Below, piece by piece: positions 21,574 to 35,275 of a DNA stretch of 64,000 nt. The translations under genes were made by a program, and so were the position numbers. This DNA comes from Micromonospora sp. M71_S20. Its GTDB lineage: Bacteria > Actinomycetota > Actinomycetes > Mycobacteriales > Micromonosporaceae. The stretch lies in assembly GCF_003664255.1 (NCBI RefSeq), contig NZ_RCCV01000004.1:434001-498000 (forward strand). The letters run 5' to 3'. Below the pieces are notes generated by a model. It ran no database searches. It was not told where the DNA came from and saw only the letters and a list, made by a program, of their open reading frames with translations. The first letter of the stretch is position 1. The number at the start of each line of letters is the position of its first letter.

Positions 21574-22518
21574 CTAGATCGGGAAGGTGCCGCGCCGCCA
21601 CTGCCAGTGGCGGCCGGCCCGCAGGTGGTCGACGACCGCGCGCTGGAGGAGGGTGCGGCGCGGCAGTTGGTCGAGCGGCGTGGTCAGGGTGCGGAACACG
21701 AACCGCAGCACCTCGACGTCGGCGTCCAGCCCTTCCGGCTCCTCGTAGGGCTCCAGCTCGAACCTCCGCTGGAACCGGACGATGTTGGCGTCCGCGGGCA
21801 GGTACTCCCGCAGCTGCGGGTCGAGCAGCCACGAGCCGCAGGAGAACGCCGTGTGGCGCTCGTCTGGAAAGTGCCGCGGGAAGAACGCACGGGCCTCGTC
21901 GAGCGACGCCTCGACCGCCTCCGGGCCCATCGGCCCCGACTCGGGGATGTGCAGGTGGATGGTGGTGTCGCCGCGCTGGTGCTGCAGCCGGCCCAACTCG
22001 TAGATGCCGCCGCGCGCGTGCAGCGTGAGCCAGCTCTGCATGACCGGCCACCCCTCGCGGTGCATCCGCCGGTCGATCGCGAGGTTGCGGCCCAGGTCCG
22101 CGAGGGTCACCCACGACACGGCGTCGGCGATGCCGTGGTCGCGGTGGTACGCCGTGACGACGTCGACCAGGGCCAGGTACGCGTACACGTAGAGATGCCG
22201 CCAGGCGGGGCCCCGCTCGCGCGGCAGCGCCGGACCGGGCGGCAGCCAGCCGTAACCCCCCAGATCGGCGCGGACCAGGGCGATCGAGCGGTCGAGCAGC
22301 CAGCGCAGCTCCGGTGTCCACAGCGGAGAGCCGGGCTCGGGCCAGCCCGCCAGGATCTCGGCGGCGTCGTCCGGACGCACCGCGAGCCGGTCGAGGATCG
22401 CGGGCGCGTCGGCCTTCGCGGGCAGCGGAGCCGACGGCCGGTCGCCGGCGAGCCGGTGCACGCGGTCGACGTCCTCGACGGGTACGCCGAGCCGGGCGGC
22501 GGTGTCGGCCAGGTCCAC
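21574..22518 (-). CDS. Acyltransferase-domain protein (GNAT-like C-terminal fold)
   Basis: A 314-residue cytosolic protein. The N-terminal part (DLADTAARLGVPVEDVDRV, PDDAAEILAGWPEP) and C-terminal half (WLTLHARGGIYELGRLQHQR, TIHLHIPESGPM, FPRHFPDERHTAFSCGSWLLDPQL) match the actinobacterial family annotated as acyltransferase domain-containing with a GNAT-like C-terminal domain. The conserved HIPE and CGSWLLDP segments are its hallmark. The acceptor is unknown. A GTG start at 22516-22518 is used. It is divergent from the operon at 22711. Confidence 0.72.
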   Translation of the reverse strand: MDLADTAARLGVPVEDVDRVHRLAGDRPSAPLPAKADAPAILDRLAVRPDDAAEILAGWPEPGSPLWTPELRWLLDRSIALVRADLGGYGWLPPGPALPRERGPAWRHLYVYAYLALVDVVTAYHRDHGIADAVSWVTLADLGRNLAIDRRMHREGWPVMQSWLTLHARGGIYELGRLQHQRGDTTIHLHIPESGPMGPEAVEASLDEARAFFPRHFPDERHTAFSCGSWLLDPQLREYLPADANIVRFQRRFELEPYEEPEGLDADVEVLRFVFRTLTTPLDQLPRRTLLQRAVVDHLRAGRHWQWRRGTFPI

Positions 22519-22710: not shown

Positions 22711-23418
22711 ATGGCAGCCAGAGGCGCGCCGGTGACGCATCGGGCAATCGACCACGGCCGATTCTCGCTCGATGGTTCACTCGACCTCAGCGCACCGTTC
22801 ACATCCGTGGCCGACGTGACGATCGGCGGCCGGCTGCACGAGTTCACGGCCGGCGCGATCGGGCTCGCGGACGACGTGGCCCGGACGCTCGGCGTCGAGA
22901 CGTTCGACGAGGAACTCACCTACCAGGGCGGAACGCTGCTGACCGCGCGCATCCGGTCGTACGACCCGCAGATCCAGTTGGCTGAGGAACGGCTCGTGGC
23001 GGTCTGGCGGGGGCGGCGGCACTGCTTCTTCACCGAGATGTACGGCGCGGCGACCACCGACCTGCTCGGGGCATTGCGGACGCTGCGCGTCGAGGAGCAC
23101 GACGACGGGCTGGCCCTGCGCCCGACCTCGAAGACCGGGGCCGAGTTCGTCGAACCCGCCACCGTGCTCAAGGAGGTTCCCGGGCTCGGCCTGCTGGAGA
23201 TCGCACCGCTCACCAAGCAGCGTGCCGGGCAACTGCCCACCTGGCGTGGCCTCCAGACGCAGGCGGGCGAACTCTTCCGGGACGTCCTGCCCGACGGGCA
23301 GCCCTACTTCGTACTGGCTGCGGCGGACGCCTGGCTCAGCCTGGTGCCGTTCGCCGACACGGACATGGAGCAGGTGCCCACTCTGGTCGACCGGCTCCGC
23401 GTCCGGACCGCCCGGTAG
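22711..23418 (+). CDS. Protein of unknown function, first gene of the Mau-like operon
   Basis: A 235-residue cytosolic protein without signal or membrane segment. I do not recognise its family. Visible features are a beta-rich N-terminal half (SLDLSAPFTSVADVTIGGRLHEF), an acidic VETFDEELTYQGGTLL, a VWRGRRHCFFTEMYGA segment with the single cysteine, and a Leu-rich GLGLLEIAPLTKQRAGQ. ATG at 22711 is chosen over the in-frame ATG at 22642, which lies in the promoter. It is 6 bases upstream of the MauE-like gene, so it belongs to the same transcript. Its place where an amine-dehydrogenase heavy chain might stand is notable, but it is too short and lacks propeller repeats. Confidence 0.7.
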   Translation: MAARGAPVTHRAIDHGRFSLDGSLDLSAPFTSVADVTIGGRLHEFTAGAIGLADDVARTLGVETFDEELTYQGGTLLTARIRSYDPQIQLAEERLVAVWRGRRHCFFTEMYGAATTDLLGALRTLRVEEHDDGLALRPTSKTGAEFVEPATVLKEVPGLGLLEIAPLTKQRAGQLPTWRGLQTQAGELFRDVLPDGQPYFVLAAADAWLSLVPFADTDMEQVPTLVDRLRVRTAR

Positions 23419-23424
23419 GTCGGG

Positions 23425-24015
23425 ATGTCCGGACTGCTGGCCGGCGTGGCCACGTACACCGTCCTGTTCACCCTGCTCGTCAGCACCGCCGAGCACCTGT
23501 CACGGCCGGCGGCGCTCGCCGAGGCCCTGGCCGCGCACCGGGTGCTTCCGGCTCCGGGCGCGGTCGCCGCCATCGCCATCGCCGGCGAAGGCCTGCTCGC
23601 CGGCGCCGGGATCGTGGCGCTGCTCCACCCCGCCGGCGAGGGCCTGCTCGCCGCCGTCCTCGTCGGCAGCGTCGCGCTGCTCGCCCTGTACGCCGGCTAC
23701 GGCCTGTACGTGAGGTCGACCGGGCGCGCCGGCTCGTGCGGATGCTCCCGGGTGGAACTGCCGATGACCGGCTGGGTGGTGGCGCGGGCGGCGGTCCTCG
23801 CCGGGCTGGCACTGGTCGCGCTGCTCCTGTCCGGCTCGATCATCCCGGCGGATCGCGCCGACGCCCCACTGGCCGTCGTGCTGCTGGCCTCCGCCACGTT
23901 CACCGTGCTGCTGTGGCACCTGCCCGCCGCGATGTACGAGCCGGCGACGGCGACAGCCCGGCGGCCCACGACCCGCCGGTCCATCGGCACGACAGAGGGA
24001 GGCCTGCCCGGATGA
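23425..24015 (+). CDS. MauE-like redox-associated membrane protein
   Basis: A 196-residue integral membrane protein with about five hydrophobic helices in the MauE/DoxX arrangement. After helix 3 comes the loop GRAGSCGCSRVELPMTGWVVARA, whose CGC motif next to a conserved region before helix 4 is typical of MauE relatives. MauE is required in methylotrophs to mature the disulfide-rich light chain of methylamine dehydrogenase, probably by redox chemistry at the outer face. Here it is flanked by a thioredoxin-like gene (ATGA overlap) and a 12-cysteine exported protein, which fits the same role. The ATG follows the previous stop by six bases. Confidence 0.8.
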   Translation: MSGLLAGVATYTVLFTLLVSTAEHLSRPAALAEALAAHRVLPAPGAVAAIAIAGEGLLAGAGIVALLHPAGEGLLAAVLVGSVALLALYAGYGLYVRSTGRAGSCGCSRVELPMTGWVVARAAVLAGLALVALLLSGSIIPADRADAPLAVVLLASATFTVLLWHLPAAMYEPATATARRPTTRRSIGTTEGGLPG

Positions 24016-24557
24016 GCTTCCAGACCAGCGCACTGATCCTGAGCTGGATCGCGATACTCCTGCTGGCGTTCACGGTCTCGGGCCTGGTACGCCAGGTGCA
24101 CGCGCTGTCGAGCGGGGCGGTCCAGCGCCGTCCCGAGTCGGTCGGTCTGCGGCCGGGCGCACCAGCCCCCGAATTCGCCCGGCTGGCACCGGCGGCACCG
24201 GCGGTTCCGCTGGTGCTGCTCTTTTTGGAACCCGACTGCGGGACGTGCACCGAGGTGCTGGCCGAGGCGAGCGAACACGTCCGCCCCGGCCTGGAGTTCC
24301 GGGTCCTCTACCGGGAGGACCCGCCGGCGCGGGCCGCGGAGCTGCCGATCACCGTGCTCGGCGGACAGGCGGAGCTGTTCGAGCGCTACGACGCCCTCGC
24401 CACCCCGTTCGCCACCGTCGTCGACCGGGCCGGGCGGGTGCTGCGCGCCGAGCCGCTCGGCTCCCGCGCGGCACTGCACCGCCTGCTCGACGAAGTCGAC
24501 AGCCCACCCGGCGACCCCGCACCGGCGGTCGCCACGAATCAGGGAGATCGGGCATGA
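24012..24557 (+). CDS. MauD/TlpA-like membrane-anchored thioredoxin-fold protein
   Basis: A 181-residue protein with an N-terminal membrane anchor (residues 5-27), then the GLRPGAPAPEFARL segment typical of TlpA/MauD redoxins, and the active-site motif EPDCGTCTEVL with Cys76 and Cys79 at the start of the first helix. The C-terminal TPFATVVDRAGRVL contains the cis-Pro loop of the thioredoxin fold. It should face outward and handle disulfides of the exported partner encoded next. Start and stop both overlap neighbours by ATGA. The MauE-MauD order is as in mau clusters. Confidence 0.82.
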   Translation: MSFQTSALILSWIAILLLAFTVSGLVRQVHALSSGAVQRRPESVGLRPGAPAPEFARLAPAAPAVPLVLLFLEPDCGTCTEVLAEASEHVRPGLEFRVLYREDPPARAAELPITVLGGQAELFERYDALATPFATVVDRAGRVLRAEPLGSRAALHRLLDEVDSPPGDPAPAVATNQGDRA

Positions 24558-25489
24558 CCGGTATCGACACCGTGCCCTGGCTGCGCGGAGACGACCCGGG
24601 CACCGGGCCCGCCGTCCGGCGGGTGCCGGTCCAGCCGGGCGGCCGGAGGCGCGCCGGGTGGGAGATGTCGCGGCGCACCCTGCTCCGGGCGGGCACCGCG
24701 GTGGGGATGGCCGCGCTCAGTGTGTTCCCGGCGGCCCGCCGCGCGTACGCCGACGGCTACACCATCTATGCCGGGTGCCCGACGTACGCCAGCGACCACA
24801 ACTGCTCGCCGGGGTGCGGCCCGAGCACGATCTTCGCCGACTCCTGCAACACCAGCGGGACGTACACCGGATTCCACAAGAACGACGGCGTCACCTGGAT
24901 CCTGCGGCCGAACCAGTGCTACGGCGGCACCTACGACGGCTGGCTGTGGGCCTACAACGGGGCGTGCGGCGCCTGCGCCTGCTCGGTCGAACGCCGGTGC
25001 CACGACGGGTACAAGAAGACCAGCTCCGGCTGGGTGAAGTCGATCTGCCGCTGGAACACCAAGTGCGGATGCCTGGGCGCGGCCAGCTGGCCCACCACCC
25101 GGCGGAGCAACACGGGGGTCAACGTCTACACGGTGCAGCACCTGTTGACCGCCCGCGGGCACGCGACCGACATCGACGGGATCTTCGGTGCCGACACCGA
25201 GGCGAAGGTGAAGAGCTTCCAGACGGCGGCCGGCCTCGGGGCCACCGGTGTCGTCGACGCGACCACCTGGCCGAAGCTCGTGACCACGGTCCGCTCCGGG
25301 AACAGCGGCCAGGTCGTCAGCGCCGCGCAGCGCCAGCTGAACAGGCGCGGCTACGCGCTGGTGGTCGACGGGTCCTTCGGCCCGGCGACGGACAGCGCGG
25401 CGCGCGACTTCCAGCGGCAGAACGGGCTGACGGTCGACGGGGTGATCGGGGTCAACTCCTGGCGGACGCTGACCGGCGCCGCCGTATGA
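24554..25489 (+). CDS. Tat-exported 12-cysteine MauA-like protein with two peptidoglycan-binding repeats
   Basis: A 311-residue protein. Residues 38-66 form a twin-arginine signal (MSRRTLLRAG, hydrophobic stretch, RAYADG). Residues 68-175 hold exactly 12 cysteines (74, 84, 88, 98, 122, 138, 141, 143, 149, 165, 171, 173), the number in methylamine dehydrogenase light chain, and the GVTWILRPNQCY and WLWAYNGACGACAC stretches align plausibly with MauA's SWVASCY and LIAYRDCCG regions. Residues 187-311 are two PG_binding_1 repeats (DIDGIFGADTEAKVKSFQ and VVDGSFGPATDSAARDFQ). A pre-folded Tat route, dedicated MauE/MauD and wall-binding tail suggest a disulfide-rich protein anchored at the cell wall. 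Whether any Trp pair becomes TTQ is unknown; no MauG or heavy chain is nearby. Confidence 0.75.
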   Translation: MTGIDTVPWLRGDDPGTGPAVRRVPVQPGGRRRAGWEMSRRTLLRAGTAVGMAALSVFPAARRAYADGYTIYAGCPTYASDHNCSPGCGPSTIFADSCNTSGTYTGFHKNDGVTWILRPNQCYGGTYDGWLWAYNGACGACACSVERRCHDGYKKTSSGWVKSICRWNTKCGCLGAASWPTTRRSNTGVNVYTVQHLLTARGHATDIDGIFGADTEAKVKSFQTAAGLGATGVVDATTWPKLVTTVRSGNSGQVVSAAQRQLNRRGYALVVDGSFGPATDSAARDFQRQNGLTVDGVIGVNSWRTLTGAAV

Positions 25490-25659
25490 CCCGGACGCTG
25501 CCGGGGCACGCCCGGGCGGCACTGCGCCGGGTCGGCGACCCCCTCGTACCCCTCGTGCTGCTCGCCGTCGGTGCGCTCGCCGCCGCCGCGTACGGACACG
25601 TGCTCACCTGGGCGATGATCGGAGGGCTCGCGGGTTACACGCTCTCCGGCTCCGTTTGA
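25486..25659 (+). CDS. Short membrane protein, probably the N-terminal part of a gene interrupted by TGA
   Basis: A 57-residue frame with one or two hydrophobic helices (LVPLVLLAVGALAAAAYGHV and WAMIGGLAGYTLSG). The ATG at 25486 overlaps the stop of the MauA-like gene (ATGA), so it is translated as part of the operon. The reading frame continues without another stop through 25660-26244 after the single TGA at 25657-25659, which suggests that this and the next entry were one gene of about 252 codons. It could still be a genuine small membrane protein. Confidence 0.55.
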   Translation: MTRTLPGHARAALRRVGDPLVPLVLLAVGALAAAAYGHVLTWAMIGGLAGYTLSGSV

Positions 25660-25746
25660 ACGCACAACAGCGCGCACGCGCTGGCCTCGCCCGGGTGGCG
25701 GGATCGAGATCGGCAGGGCGTCGTCCTCAGCCTGTTCGTCGTAGGG

Positions 25747-26244
25747 TTGATCGCCGGTGGCCTGCTCAGCGGGTTGGTGCTGGGGTTGCTCTCCGGCCTG
25801 TCCGCGCCCCTGCCCGTCCCGTGGCGGCACGCGGGCATCGTGGCGGTGGCGGTGCTGGGGCTGCTCCGCGAGGTGGGCCTGGTGCCGATCCGGCTGCCGC
25901 AGAACGCCCGGCAGGTGCCGCAGGACGTGCTTCAGCGCAGCCTGCGGCGCGGGGCGCTGCAGTTCGGCTTCGAGATGGGCACCGGGGTCCGCACCTACGT
26001 CTCGGCGAGTGCTCCGTACGTGCTGGCGGTCGCCCTGCTCCTCGGCGGTCAGCGCCTGCACGTCGCGATGCTCGCCGGGATCGGCTTCGGTGTCGGACGC
26101 GCGATGACCCCGCTGGCCCGCCGCGCCGCCGGCACCGGCTACAGGTGGGACGCCGACCTGCGGGTACGGATCCGCACGATCACCGTCACGGCGGGCGTCG
26201 TGCTCGTGGCCGCCCTCAGCCTGCTGGCCGTGCGGCAGTTCTGA
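25747..26244 (+). CDS. Membrane protein, probable continuation of the gene started at 25486
   Basis: A 165-residue hydrophobic protein if read from TTG at 25747, but coding character extends back in frame to 25660 (HALASPGWRDRDRQGVVLSL), and no ribosome site supports the TTG. There are four to five membrane helices and an amphipathic LPQNARQVPQDVLQRSLRRG segment followed by FGFEMGTGVRTYVSASAPY. I do not recognise the family. Position as last gene of the Mau-like operon suggests a role in the same process. A nonsense mutation, sequencing error or translational restart at 25657 are the three explanations. Confidence 0.6.
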   Translation: MIAGGLLSGLVLGLLSGLSAPLPVPWRHAGIVAVAVLGLLREVGLVPIRLPQNARQVPQDVLQRSLRRGALQFGFEMGTGVRTYVSASAPYVLAVALLLGGQRLHVAMLAGIGFGVGRAMTPLARRAAGTGYRWDADLRVRIRTITVTAGVVLVAALSLLAVRQF

Positions 26245-30204: not shown

Positions 30205-30598
30205 CGCTCTCCCACCCAGTCCGAAGGGTTTCCTACCGACCGCACAGTGTCAGAATCGCTGGTGATGGTGAAGGGATTTTGGCTGTCGCCAACCGGATTC
30301 GTCGGGAACCCGGCGCACCGCCGGCCGCTGACCGAGGGGCGACGGCTCGGGACCCCTGCCGCCCCGCGATTACCGCTACCATCGGGCAGGTCCTGTCTCG
30401 CCCCCGTGCCCAGCGCGGACGGTCGGGCACGTGGTCGGTCCGTTCGGGCTCGGCGTATCGGGCGTTGCGCTTTCTGCGCCCGGGTGGCGGCGGCGCGGAA
30501 CGTCGAGGTCGGGCCGTTCAGGCGACGCCGGCGTCCGTCCCCGCCTGCGGTCGGGGCGCCCGTCGAACCCGGGGCCGAAGGTTGGAGGAGCCGGCCAG
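30205..30598. other. 394-bp gap before the biosynthetic cluster
   Basis: No gene recognised. It separates the SDR gene from the divergent ATP-grasp gene and marks the apparent left border of the cluster. GGAGGAG at about 30584-30590 is the ribosome site of the ATP-grasp gene. Confidence 0.5.
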
Positions 30599-31828
30599 AT
30601 GAGTCTTCCGACGTGCCTCATCGTCTACGACAGAGGCTCGGCCAGTGCGGTGACCGTCCTGTCGGCCGCGCGCGACGTCTGTGATGTCGTGTTCCTGCGG
30701 ATGAGGCACGAGGACGCGGCAGGTTCGGACATGTGGGTGATCCCCGAGAACGTTCGCGTCGTCGATGCTGTCGGACTGTCCGAGGACGAGATCTGCGACC
30801 TGGCTGCGAGCCTGAGCCCGGACGGGGTGGCCGCGTTCAACGACACCTGGCTGCACCTGGCTGCCCGCATCGCCCAGCGCTGCGGGCTGTCGTTCCACAG
30901 CCCGGCGACCGTGCCCGCCCTGACCGACAAGTTCCTGCAGCGCACGCTGCTGAACGCGGCGGCGGTGCCCTCGCCGCAGGCGCGGCTGGTGAGTACGGTC
31001 GACGATGCGGTCGTCGCCCTCGCCGAGATCGGACTGCCGGCGGTGCTGAAGCCGCGCAACGGTGCCGGCAGTGTGGACACCGCCCGCATCGAGTCGCTGG
31101 AGCGGTGCCGCGGCTACGTGGCCGAGTTCGTGGCACGTGGCACCGGCGACTTCGTCCTGGAAGAGCTGCTGACCGGAGACCCGTCGGTCGCTGGGGAATG
31201 CTGGGGTGACTACGTCTCGGTCGAATCCGTGGTGCAGGGCGAGGACGTCCAGACCGTCTGCGTGACCTCCAAGCTCCCGCTCGCGCCGCCGTTCCGTGAG
31301 ACAGGGCACGTGCTTCCCTGCACGCTGTCGGAGCGCGACCAGGCAGCCGTGGCCGAGGTCGCCAGTGCCGCACTGCGGGCGCTGGGGGTCCGGCACGGCG
31401 TGACGCACACCGAGGTCAAGCTGACCCCGGCCGGCCCTAGCGTGATCGAAGTGAACGGCCGGATGGGCGGCTACGTTCCGGTGCTGCTCCGCCGAGCGTC
31501 CGGCTTCGACCTCGTGCGGACCGTGCTGCGGCTCGCGACAGGCGAGCCGGTGACGGTGCCCACCCTGGTGTGGAAGCGCATGGAGTTCGCCTACCTGCTG
31601 GCACCGCCGGTCGAAGCGAAGACCCTGGTGTCCTGGAACGACGTGCGGCCCCGCGACGTCGGCGGTATCCGCAGCATCGAGTTGCGCTCGAAGCCGGGCC
31701 GGGCGCTGGACTGGCGCGACGGCACCGCCAACAGCATCGGTCTGGTGCACGGTACGGCGACGACGCACGAGGCGGTCCTGGCGTCTCTGGCCGAGCTGAA
31801 CGAGCGCTTGAACGTCGTCTACCGCTGA
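30599..31828 (+). CDS. ATP-grasp ligase (amide/peptide bond-forming), NRPS/PKS cluster
   Basis: A 409-residue ATP-grasp enzyme. After an N-terminal Rossmann-like part (CLIVYDRGSASAVTVLSAA) come TDKFLQRTLLNAAAVPSPQA (entry to the ATP-grasp fold), GLPAVLKPRNGAGSVDTARI (conserved Lys and Gly-rich loop) and HTEVKLTPAGPSVIEVNGR, whose E-x-N carries Mg-binding residues. Such enzymes join a carboxylate to an amine through an acyl-phosphate. In NRPS clusters they often supply a dipeptide or cap a product. It ends only 15 bases from the convergent Gly-module NRPS gene. Start ATG 30599 has a strong GGAGGAG site. Confidence 0.82.
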   Translation: MSLPTCLIVYDRGSASAVTVLSAARDVCDVVFLRMRHEDAAGSDMWVIPENVRVVDAVGLSEDEICDLAASLSPDGVAAFNDTWLHLAARIAQRCGLSFHSPATVPALTDKFLQRTLLNAAAVPSPQARLVSTVDDAVVALAEIGLPAVLKPRNGAGSVDTARIESLERCRGYVAEFVARGTGDFVLEELLTGDPSVAGECWGDYVSVESVVQGEDVQTVCVTSKLPLAPPFRETGHVLPCTLSERDQAAVAEVASAALRALGVRHGVTHTEVKLTPAGPSVIEVNGRMGGYVPVLLRRASGFDLVRTVLRLATGEPVTVPTLVWKRMEFAYLLAPPVEAKTLVSWNDVRPRDVGGIRSIELRSKPGRALDWRDGTANSIGLVHGTATTHEAVLASLAELNERLNVVYR

Positions 31829-31843: not shown

Positions 31844-34800
31844 CTAGCCTCCGGTGCGCGCCTGCCGTTTGCGGCGCACCTGCTGCTGCCGGCGCAGGCG
31901 GGCGCGCTGCGCCTCGTCGTGGTCCGCTGCCACGCCGGGCTCATCGGCGGCCCCACCGGCCAGGTGCGCCGCGAAGTTGCGTACCGTCGGAAAGCGGAAC
32001 AGGTCGACGATGCGCGCCTGGGGCGCGGCCTGCGCACGCACCTCACTGAGCAGGCGGACCACCAGCAGGGAGTTGCCGCCGGAGCGGAAGAAGTCGTCGG
32101 TCACCCCGATGCGCTCGTCGCCCAACACCCGGCGCCAGGCCGCCAGCAGTGCCTCTTCGAGGTCGCCGTCCGCCGTGACCGGCTCGGACCCGACGGCGCG
32201 TGCCTCGATCCTGGGCAGCGCCTTGCGGTCGAGTTTCCCGTTGGGAGAGACCGGCAGCGCGGGGATGGTGGCGACCAGGCCGGGGATCATCTGGGGCGGC
32301 AGCGTGCGCGCCAGCTCGACCCGCAGCCATTCCTCGTCCACCGCTGCGCCGTCGGCGGTGACGCAGTGGGCGGCGAGGCGGCTCTGGTCGCCGTCGGTCT
32401 GCACGACCACGGCGCAGTCCTGCAGACCGGGCAGAGCGGCCACCGCCCGCTCGATCTCCTCCAGCTCGATCCGGTGGCCGTTGAGCTTGACCTGGTTGTC
32501 GAAGCGACCGACCAGTTCGATCGTGCCGTCGGGCGTCATCCGCGCGAGGTCGCCGGTGCGGTAGACGGTGGCTCCGTCGTCGAGGTGCGGCGCCGAGACG
32601 AAGCGTCGCGCGGTCAGTTCCGGGTCCCCGACATAGCCCTGGCTGACCCCCGCGCCGCCGATGACGAGCTCGCCGAACATGCCGACGGGCACCGGACGCA
32701 GGAAGGCATCGACGATGTGCACCGTGGTGTTGGCGACCGGCCTGCCCACCAGCGGCGGCCCGGAGTCGAGCTGCCAGGCGGTGGACCATACCGTGGTCTC
32801 GGTCGGACCGTACATGTTCAGCACCCTGGGAATGCCGAGCTCGCGCAGCGTGGTGGCAAGCGCCGGGTCCAGCGGCTCACCGCCGACCAGCAGGGTGTGC
32901 AGCCGGGCGAGGGCCCGGGGTCCGCCGGGCATCCGCAGCACCGTACGGACGAACGTGGGTGTCGCCTGCAGCGCGTTGACCCCGGCGGTCTCGATCAGGT
33001 CGGGGACCTTGACCGGCTCGGTGTCGGCTTCCGCCAACCGGTGCAGCGTCTCCATGCTCTCGCCGAGGACGACGTGGACACCGCGGCTGAGGGTCCACAG
33101 CAGTTCGAGCACCGCGATGTCGAAGGTGACGTTGGTGACCGCGAGCCATACCGGCCGTGGCGGAAGCGGGACCGTTTCGTCCATCGCCGCGAAGAAGTTG
33201 GTCAGGTTGCGCTGTGCGATGCGGACGCCCTTCGGCACGCCGGTCGAGCCCGAGGTGAAGATGACGTATGCGGTGCTGTCCGCCGGGACCTCGGGAAGAG
33301 TGCTCAGCGGCGGGTGACCGGTGAGTTCGGTCAGCGGCAGGACCCGGCCGTCGAACGGCGGTGACGGCACGGCGGGGTGTTCGACGATCAGCGCGGCGCA
33401 TTCGGCGATGGCCAGGCTGGCCGCCGACCGAGGCTGCGGTGCCGCGCCGTCGAGAGGCACGTACGCCATGCCGGCGCTGAGCACGCCGAGCAGGGTCGCG
33501 ACGAGATCGGTGGATCGGGGGACCAGGACGCCGACGCGGTCGCCGGGGCGTAGCCCCGCCGCGACGAGACCGGCCGTGATGGCCTGGGCCCGTTCGGCCA
33601 GCGCGGCGCTGGTGAGGGTGTGGCCGCGAAAGGTCACCGCGGGTGCGGTGGGGTCGGCGTGCAGCTGGGCCAGGATCTGCCGGTGCACCGGAAGGGCGGG
33701 CAGCTCCCGGGCGGTGGCGGCGTTCCATCGGGCCACGTGGGCGAGGTCTTCGGCGCCGGCCAGCACCAGGTCACCGAGGCTGGCGTCGGGGTCGGCCGCC
33801 ATCAGCCGGACCACGCGCGCGAACCAGTCCACCAGGCGCGACATGTCGGACTTGGCGAACATCTCGCTGTTGTAGACGAGGAAGCCCGTGCCCAGATCGC
33901 CGTCCTCGCGCAACTTGAACATGATGTCGTACTGCGTCGCGTAGACCGGCGCGACGGCCTGCCCGGTCTCCAGGCCCGTCAGCGACAGCCCGGTCTCGGG
34001 GTAGCTCTGCAGGATGAAGATGGCCTGGAACAGCGGCGAGTGCGAGACGCTGCGATCCGGCGCGACCGCCTGGACCACCTGGTCGAAGGGGAGATCCTGG
34101 TGGGCGAAGGCGTCGAAGACGCTGCGGCGGACCGCGGCGAGGTACTCGCGGACCGTCTGCTGCGGATCGGGCCGCATCCGTACCGTGATCGAGTTGAAGA
34201 ACAGGCCGAGGGTGTTCTCCAGCACGGGGTAGGGCCGACTGGCCAGCGGGCTGCCGATCGCGAGGTCGTCAGCGCGGGTCATCCGTGACAGCAGCAGGCC
34301 GTACGCCGCGACCAGGGCGCCGTAGAGGGTGGTGCCGCACTCGGCGCACAGCTCCCGCAGCCGCTTCATCAGCTCCGCGTCGTAGGTGAACACCAGCGCG
34401 TCACCGCGGTAGCTCTGCACCGCGGCCCGGGGCCGGCCGGGCATCAGCTCCAGCGCCGCCGGCAACTGCGCCAACTGGCCGCGCCAGAACTCGCGCTGCT
34501 GTGCGGCCACTTCGCCGGTGATCCACTGCCGCTCCCACGCGGCGAAGTCGGCGTACTGCACCGGCAGGTCGGGCAGGTCCGGCTCGCGGCCCTCGACGGC
34601 GGCGGAGTACAGCTCCGAGATCTCCTTGCGGATGATGCCCGCCGACCAGCCGTCGGAGATGACGTGGTGCTGGGTGATGACGAGGATCCAGTCCGTGGCG
34701 CCGGTGCGGATGAGGTCGAAGCGGATGAGCGGGGCCCGCGACAGGTCGAAGCGGGTCGCGACGATGTCGTACAGCAGTTGCCGGACCGTCTCGTCGGCGG

Positions 34801-35275
34801 CTTCCCGCAGGTCGTGCTCGGTGTACGCGGGGCGTCCCGCCGGGTCCGGCACCTGGAACAGGTCGTCGCCGTCCTCCACGAGCGCGCTGCGCAGGATCTC
34901 GTGCCGGGCCGTGATGGTCTCGACGGCAAGCCGCATCGCGTCGGTGTCGAGCGGACCGGTGATGGTGCGCGCCATGTACATGTTGTAGATCGGCACGTCG
35001 GTCGCGAGTTGCTCGATCAGCCAGAGGCGCCGCTGCGCGTAGGAGGCCGGCAGCGGTCGGGTGCGGTCGACCGGGACGATGCGGACACTGCGGCGCCGCT
35101 CTTCGTGCTCCTGCTCGCGAACGAACTGCAGCACCTCGTCGCGGTGCGCGGCGAGGCGGGCTCGCAGCGGCTCGGTGAGCCGCTCGCGCGGGCCGGTTAT
35201 CCGCAGCTTGTCACCCTGTGCGGAAAGGCGCATGCCCAGGCCCGCGAGTTCGGACAGCAGGTCGATAAGTGCCAT
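31844..35275 (-). CDS. NRPS module TubC-docking/C/A/PCP, predicted to activate glycine
   Basis: A 1143-residue single-module synthetase. Residues 1-52 form a TubC-like docking domain (LIDLLSELAGLGMRLSAQGD), so it receives its substrate from another protein. The condensation domain has an intact TQHHVISDGWS near residue 205. The adenylation domain shows FTSGSTGVPKG near 676, NMYGPTETTVWS and YRTGDLAR; aligned to GrsA the specificity residues read D-I-L-Q-L-G-M-V-W, essentially the glycine code. A carrier with GGNSLLVV (Ser near 1067) follows. The C-terminus is basic (RRQQQVRRKRQ) and has no thioesterase. It is transcribed leftward from the divergent promoter at 35.3-35.7 kb. AAAGGAG precedes the ATG. 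Confidence 0.9.
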   Translation of the reverse strand: MALIDLLSELAGLGMRLSAQGDKLRITGPRERLTEPLRARLAAHRDEVLQFVREQEHEERRRSVRIVPVDRTRPLPASYAQRRLWLIEQLATDVPIYNMYMARTITGPLDTDAMRLAVETITARHEILRSALVEDGDDLFQVPDPAGRPAYTEHDLREAADETVRQLLYDIVATRFDLSRAPLIRFDLIRTGATDWILVITQHHVISDGWSAGIIRKEISELYSAAVEGREPDLPDLPVQYADFAAWERQWITGEVAAQQREFWRGQLAQLPAALELMPGRPRAAVQSYRGDALVFTYDAELMKRLRELCAECGTTLYGALVAAYGLLLSRMTRADDLAIGSPLASRPYPVLENTLGLFFNSITVRMRPDPQQTVREYLAAVRRSVFDAFAHQDLPFDQVVQAVAPDRSVSHSPLFQAIFILQSYPETGLSLTGLETGQAVAPVYATQYDIMFKLREDGDLGTGFLVYNSEMFAKSDMSRLVDWFARVVRLMAADPDASLGDLVLAGAEDLAHVARWNAATARELPALPVHRQILAQLHADPTAPAVTFRGHTLTSAALAERAQAITAGLVAAGLRPGDRVGVLVPRSTDLVATLLGVLSAGMAYVPLDGAAPQPRSAASLAIAECAALIVEHPAVPSPPFDGRVLPLTELTGHPPLSTLPEVPADSTAYVIFTSGSTGVPKGVRIAQRNLTNFFAAMDETVPLPPRPVWLAVTNVTFDIAVLELLWTLSRGVHVVLGESMETLHRLAEADTEPVKVPDLIETAGVNALQATPTFVRTVLRMPGGPRALARLHTLLVGGEPLDPALATTLRELGIPRVLNMYGPTETTVWSTAWQLDSGPPLVGRPVANTTVHIVDAFLRPVPVGMFGELVIGGAGVSQGYVGDPELTARRFVSAPHLDDGATVYRTGDLARMTPDGTIELVGRFDNQVKLNGHRIELEEIERAVAALPGLQDCAVVVQTDGDQSRLAAHCVTADGAAVDEEWLRVELARTLPPQMIPGLVATIPALPVSPNGKLDRKALPRIEARAVGSEPVTADGDLEEALLAAWRRVLGDERIGVTDDFFRSGGNSLLVVRLLSEVRAQAAPQARIVDLFRFPTVRNFAAHLAGGAADEPGVAADHDEAQRARLRRQQQVRRKRQARTGG

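Follow-up and report, generated by a model that had tools for sequence, protein, structure and literature searches.

What is the purpose of an operon that places genes resembling those for methylamine dehydrogenase (MADH) maturation beside an exported, cysteine-rich protein with cell-wall-binding repeats, and what is the membrane protein at its end? The operon lies on the plus strand at 22711..26244 of the window, a 64,000-nucleotide stretch of Micromonospora sp. M71_S20, and a first-pass annotation took it for a repurposed Mau-like system maturing a wall-binding, MauA-like protein. That reading missed a candidate for selenocysteine (Sec) in the last gene, and with it the operon takes on a different meaning. 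The last two open reading frames (ORFs), g5 and g6, are almost certainly one gene in one frame, whose UGA would be decoded as Sec by SelB and tRNA-Sec guided by a downstream hairpin, making the product an unannotated selenoprotein.

The combined gene occupies 25486..26244 and encodes a 252-residue multi-helix membrane protein with a predicted Sec58 (SGSV-U-THNS) at an in-frame TGA, 25657..25659. A 57-residue ORF that starts inside the ATGA overlap with the preceding gene and the “membrane protein” ORF share a frame and are separated by this single TGA; the membrane protein previously placed at 25747-26244 does exist, but it was mis-delimited, as the gene begins at 25486 and crosses the TGA. 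Besides the predicted Sec, the read-through protein of the window contains no cysteine. Homologous loci number 91, with 12 from 300 family genomes and 79 from species genomes (Micromonospora, Stackebrandtia, Streptomyces, Actinophytocola, Actinomadura, Actinoallomurus and others), and represent fewer than 91 genomes because the two sets partly overlap. TGA stands at the homologous site in every locus having the gene, that is in 88/88 loci read in frame plus L067, where the frame breaks later, and L067 is also the sole exception to g5 and g6 lying in one frame wherever both are found. All 55 aligned rows, with identities down to 33%, retain the TGA; its flanks (SGSV[TGA]T.NS) are on both sides among the most conserved residues of the protein, and codon-periodic conservation begins at the first codon after the TGA. 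Neither Pfam nor NCBIfam (release 20) has a family that the read-through protein matches. It has 459 database relatives, of which the best 120 are 142-188 residues long and, where they carry a name, are with few exceptions called “hypothetical protein”; the motif spanning the TGA is in none of these best 120 of 459.

The sequence that follows the TGA (83 distinct flanking sequences among the loci) holds two small hairpins. The first, at 25668..25683 (columns 12-27 of alignment A4), has 90.4% of its cells paired, and the second, at 25686..25702 (columns 30-46), resembles a selenocysteine insertion sequence (SECIS), with GG in its apical loop and 95.9% of cells paired in the stem formed by columns 30-36 and 40-46. 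Pairing overall is 93.3% of cells, compared with 29-51% when the pattern is slid, and covariation is modest. Most relatives keep the rare codons CCA/GGT at +33/+36, and the third base is A or T at +33 in 80% and at +36 in 76% of 88 sequences, the mean being 10%; the window copy has CCC/GGG at these positions and retains the stem with a five-base loop. The stem-loop just 3' of the UGA, with G in its apical loop, has the form by which bacterial selenoproteins are recognized, and SelB is predicted to bind it.

The Micromonospora genome itself has clustered tRNA-Sec (74 bits), selA (402 bits) and selB (248 bits), and about 2.3 kb from this cluster, near selC-selA-selB, lies a formate dehydrogenase gene (minus strand, G000:C1 4168000-4187000, at 13672-17019 of L110) that itself carries an in-frame TGA, with GGTCT in the sequence after it, and that provides a positive control. 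Plain ORF calling likewise halves this formate dehydrogenase gene. Among 45 genomes with the operon, 44 have a tRNA-Sec scoring 68 bits or more. Within the operon locus itself a selA, selB or selD homologue is present in 25/91 cases, in 17 of which selD ends no more than about 410 nucleotides upstream of the match to the first gene, and tRNA-SeC is present in 21/91. At class level 8 of 296 genomes carry a near-full-length protein (11 hits with exactly one TGA each); selB exceeds its cut-off in seven of these eight compared with 59/296 overall (hypergeometric 6e-5), and in the eighth it falls 1.5 bits below. An FdhA-like match at 1e-100 was not found in 12 of 44 carriers, other selenoproteins not having been searched for, and several of the FdhA matches in carriers are without TGA.

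The genes before the selenoprotein candidate were largely described correctly by the first-pass annotation, with all named ORFs at the positions given and near-continuous ATGA overlaps (at 24012, 24554 and 25486; a 6-nucleotide gap separates the first two genes). The first gene, g1 (22711..23418), encodes a 235-residue protein, first listed as unknown, which has no Pfam or NCBIfam family above cut-off. The second (23425..24015) is indeed MauE-like, matching PF07291 at E 1e-12 and 48.9 bits (cut-off 27) and carrying an invariant C105-x-C107. The third (24012..24557) encodes a redoxin, earlier called MauD-like, with a hydrophobic N-terminus and a CGTC motif (C76, C79); it has no Pfam family above cut-off and reaches just 10 bits against the MauD equivalog TIGR02661, whose cut-off is 188.6. 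The fourth, g4 (24554..25489), is the anticipated exported protein: a twin-arginine (Tat) type signal, matching TAT_signal at 17.4 bits, below the cut-off of 22.7, a 12-cysteine domain at residues ~68-175 (nucleotides 24755-25078) and, at residues ~184-306, two PG_binding_1 repeats (PF01471, 106.2 bits in two stretches, above cut-off). Outside the signal and wall repeats it has no Pfam or NCBIfam family. Elsewhere in the window, a divergent neighbour at 21574-22518 on the minus strand is an acyltransferase (NAT_N and GNAT_C) apparently unrelated to the operon, and a large minus-strand ORF at 31844-35275, by eye a condensation-adenylation-carrier module of a nonribosomal peptide synthetase, adjoins an ORF at 30431-31828 that looks ATP-grasp-like.

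The operon is real and conserved, and its genes co-occur beyond chance. Wherever they are found, these genes keep one order and one strand in 91/91 homologous loci, with g1 present in 87, MauE in 83, the redoxin in 90 and g6 in 89. Truncated contigs account for all four losses of g1 and for three of the eight losses of MauE, but not for the other five. One Micromonosporaceae metagenome-assembled genome (L007, L017) carries g1, MauE, redoxin and the Cys-rich protein, followed by no detectable Sec gene in the locus. Both cysteines of the MauE CxC are kept in 71/71 aligned sequences and both of the redoxin CxxC in 78/78. A protein search for the Cys domain gave 201 homologues, the closest named one (96% identity) being from Micromonospora; the wall-binding repeats belong to the Micromonospora and Streptomyces forms, and in the Actinomadura/Actinoallomurus group the match to g4 mostly stops at the end of the Cys domain. 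The survey of neighbourhoods therefore bears out the association of the MauE-like (83/91) and redoxin (90/91) genes with the Cys-rich gene, and because this Mau-like pair is found together with a Cys-rich protein of Tat type, it is reasonable to think that the system works like Mau maturation.

Taken as a whole, the operon probably encodes selenium-dependent thiol-disulfide chemistry that serves a secreted, Cys-rich protein bound to the wall. Within it, we marginally favor the view that the Sec membrane protein provides a CcdA/DsbD-like membrane step in a relay serving the wall-bound protein. Its lone selenolate, placed at a helix break, would exchange with the CxxC of the redoxin, the CxC of MauE, or both, and so move electrons through the membrane, after which the redoxin would make or reshuffle disulfides in the exported 12-Cys protein, which would hold peptidoglycan through its PG_binding repeats. 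The likeness to CcdA/DsbD is faint. The window read-through protein gives no match to the profiles PF02683 and PF13386; for the wider relative L153, introduced below, the score is 20.9 bits (cut-off 24.9), its hits to DsbD_2 (E 3.7e-4) and DsbD_TM (E 0.005) both lying below cut-off. Among the 50 Foldseek matches listed, the highest probability (0.75) is that of CcdA 5vkv, with TMq 0.34 and E 0.25. The two redox cysteines of the CcdA/DsbD transmembrane domain are not in the window copy, which has the predicted Sec and no Cys, and we do not file the protein as a CcdA/DsbD member.

The least certain step is direction, where we favor net oxidation over reduction. In CcdA/DsbD relatives electrons pass from cytoplasmic thioredoxin outward, and together with the weak DsbD/CcdA likeness this lends something to the opposite flow, in which electrons would pass outward through the Sec protein and there reduce or repair the Cys protein on the wall, or remove peroxide at the surface. 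MauE and MauD, the named analogues, serve disulfide formation in MADH, however, and the Cys-rich domain always has an even number of cysteines (12 in 54 of 60 aligned domains, 10 in the other six, with 10 invariant across the 60 rows), which suggests stable disulfides. We consider outward reduction possible but rather unlikely.

The label “MauA-like” for the Cys-rich domain is not supported by its sequence. g4 does not match the MADH light-chain profile PF02975; a search of its own genome with PF02975 was also without a match, though the search controls were silent as well. A profile of the Cys domain searched against PDB sequences found no MADH light chain, although such chains are present there, its sole match being an ion-channel modulator at E 2.2, and hhalign with the Paracoccus light chain gives a probability of 0.7%. 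The AlphaFold model of the domain (pLDDT 70) has a best Foldseek E of 1.3, with no match below E 1, and because the model is only moderate this comparison decides nothing alone. A true MauA relative bearing a Trp-derived quinone would explain the equal Cys count, the Tat-type route, the MauE and redoxin neighbors and the presence of W130 and W132 in 60/60 rows. Against this stand the lack of sequence and profile similarity, and W115, which was Trp throughout an earlier 21-row alignment and is Trp in 32/60 rows of the present one, with Tyr or Phe in the other 28. The MADH heavy-chain family is not among the eight neighboring proteins scanned, in line with what the first-pass annotation had said of the vicinity. 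We judge such a relationship very improbable. What survives of the repurposed Mau-like maturation first envisaged is the grouping of MauE, redoxin and Tat-type Cys protein, but not the similarity to MauA.

Further evidence on how the TGA is read comes from more distant relatives. Eight distant copies (identity 33-43%) retain the motif SGS[VT]U[ST].NSA; inspection by eye of the upstream sequence shows a CxxC redoxin, accompanied in several cases by a g1-like gene and in most by a Tat-type Cys protein that has no wall repeats, and sel genes adjoin L124, L126 and L128. Three genomes hold two copies of the Sec gene each (L124 with both, L125 with L126, and L127 with L128), and L124a and L125 have by eye no evident Cys-rich partner. 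A phylum search found a match in 21/396 genomes, the related proteins being of ~200-225 residues, and hhalign joins nine of these wider members to the narrow family (99% probability, E 7e-18), the aligned part being the one that follows the Sec. Their site reads WSP[TGA]G in ten genomes and is similar (WSP or FGP) in two more (L152, L151), whereas three genomes (L154, L156, L159) have WSPCG. In all 20 genomes with a TGA form tRNA-Sec scores at least 59 bits, and in none of the three with a Cys form does it exceed 49 bits (Fisher 6e-4; grouping the ambiguous G782 with the TGA forms gives 0.002). Relatives of L159 make up 1562 of 8000 scored candidates, and SPCG is in all of the best 120 of 1562.

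These data weigh on whether g5 and g6 could be two proteins, a 57-residue peptide ended by a true TGA and a membrane protein reinitiated downstream. Public databases annotate the downstream part by itself, as the best 120 of 459 relatives illustrate, and an in-frame ATG or GTG follows the TGA, first at codon 7 in 41 of the 83 distinct sequences. Yet the residues from the TGA to any such start are highly conserved (T.NS, SP.WR), the stop is always TGA with the frame maintained, and TGA tracks tRNA-Sec, with Cys in its place in superfamily members of three genomes that lack it, so that we find two separate products hardly credible. Reading of the UGA by a near-cognate tRNA to give a programmed C-terminal extension, with which the conserved stop context by itself would also be compatible, deserves least credence of all given the exclusive use of TGA, the SECIS-like hairpin, tRNA-Sec in 44/45 carriers, sel genes at 25/91 loci and the Sec/Cys exchange within the superfamily.

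Of 10 loci of the wider family that were compared, 8 combine MauE, a redoxin, a g1-like gene and a Tat-type Cys-rich protein around the membrane-protein gene, which has Sec in seven of them and Cys in L159; L154 and L156 have none of these partners. The Cys-rich proteins of L153, L155 and L157-L162 have about 18-24 Cys where read, several with the motif GWT.FCC..N.G.NTCP...GWW; among five scanned, those of L159 and L155 have LGFP repeats, that of L153 has FG-GAP repeats below threshold, and the Cys core matches no family. With Sec masked as X, MAFFT puts the narrow and wide Sec in different columns, and the equivalence of their positions consequently rests on spacing and on a G918 fragment. 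This fragment, L163 (G918:C10, minus strand), reads ASP[TGA]SLNGADALGSPVWR, with a TGA site intermediate-looking between the two families. An evenly balanced proposal is that this membrane-selenoprotein superfamily, with Sec where tRNA-Sec is present and Cys in some members without it, runs selenium-dependent disulfide making in wall- or surface-anchored Tat-type Cys proteins across several Actinomycetota lineages, and may be a main reason many aerobic actinomycetes keep Sec machinery.

If correct, this would add a new selenoprotein family that was previously overlooked because gene finders halve the gene, and perhaps also because the narrow family has no Cys relative at hand for methods that search for Cys/Sec pairs. 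It would place Sec in an envelope redox system of soil actinomycetes, linking selenium to cell-surface redox chemistry, in carriers that we take to be aerobic. According to the review PMC13188914, the selenoproteins of bacteria work chiefly in anaerobic metabolism, and tolerance of Sec in air is poor; Streptomyces incarnatus has selABCD and FDH-O (PMC4498112). Why Streptomyces and its relatives retain selA-D becomes a testable question. No description of such a selenoprotein was found in the literature within scope, which left subscription papers mostly outside and included the available parts of PMC5330540, PMC5029168, PMC1242214 and PMC12013277; the last of these, in the part available, indicates that deep-Sep may miss families without Cys relatives for Cys/Sec-pair methods. 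The g5+g6 family has no NCBIfam release 20 model and does not appear in the 2026 inventory of 119 prokaryotic selenoprotein families, as far as that of PMC13188914 is accessible.

Among known systems, the prokaryotic selenoprotein families inventoried in the accessible text of PMC13188914 share with this gene the in-frame UGA, SECIS-like hairpin and sel machinery; TsoB, described there as “rhodanese/DsbD fusion-like”, is nearest to the Sec protein by name only. NqrE/RnfA membrane subunits are also among the closest systems. CcdA/DsbD (PF02683, PF13386) are likewise small multi-helix membrane proteins paired with a redoxin, and wider relatives carry WSP[U/C]G, two with a weak DsbD_2 match and one also with DsbD_TM; they differ in having two Cys where the operon's protein has one predicted Sec, and profile and fold matches lie below threshold. 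The parallel with the Mau maturation genes is MauE (PF07291) together with a membrane-anchored CxxC redoxin, next to an exported protein of Tat type that has 12 Cys. The operon departs from them in a client without profile relation to MauA and a redoxin below the MauD equivalog cut-off, and it adds the predicted Sec membrane protein and, in part of the family, wall-binding repeats.

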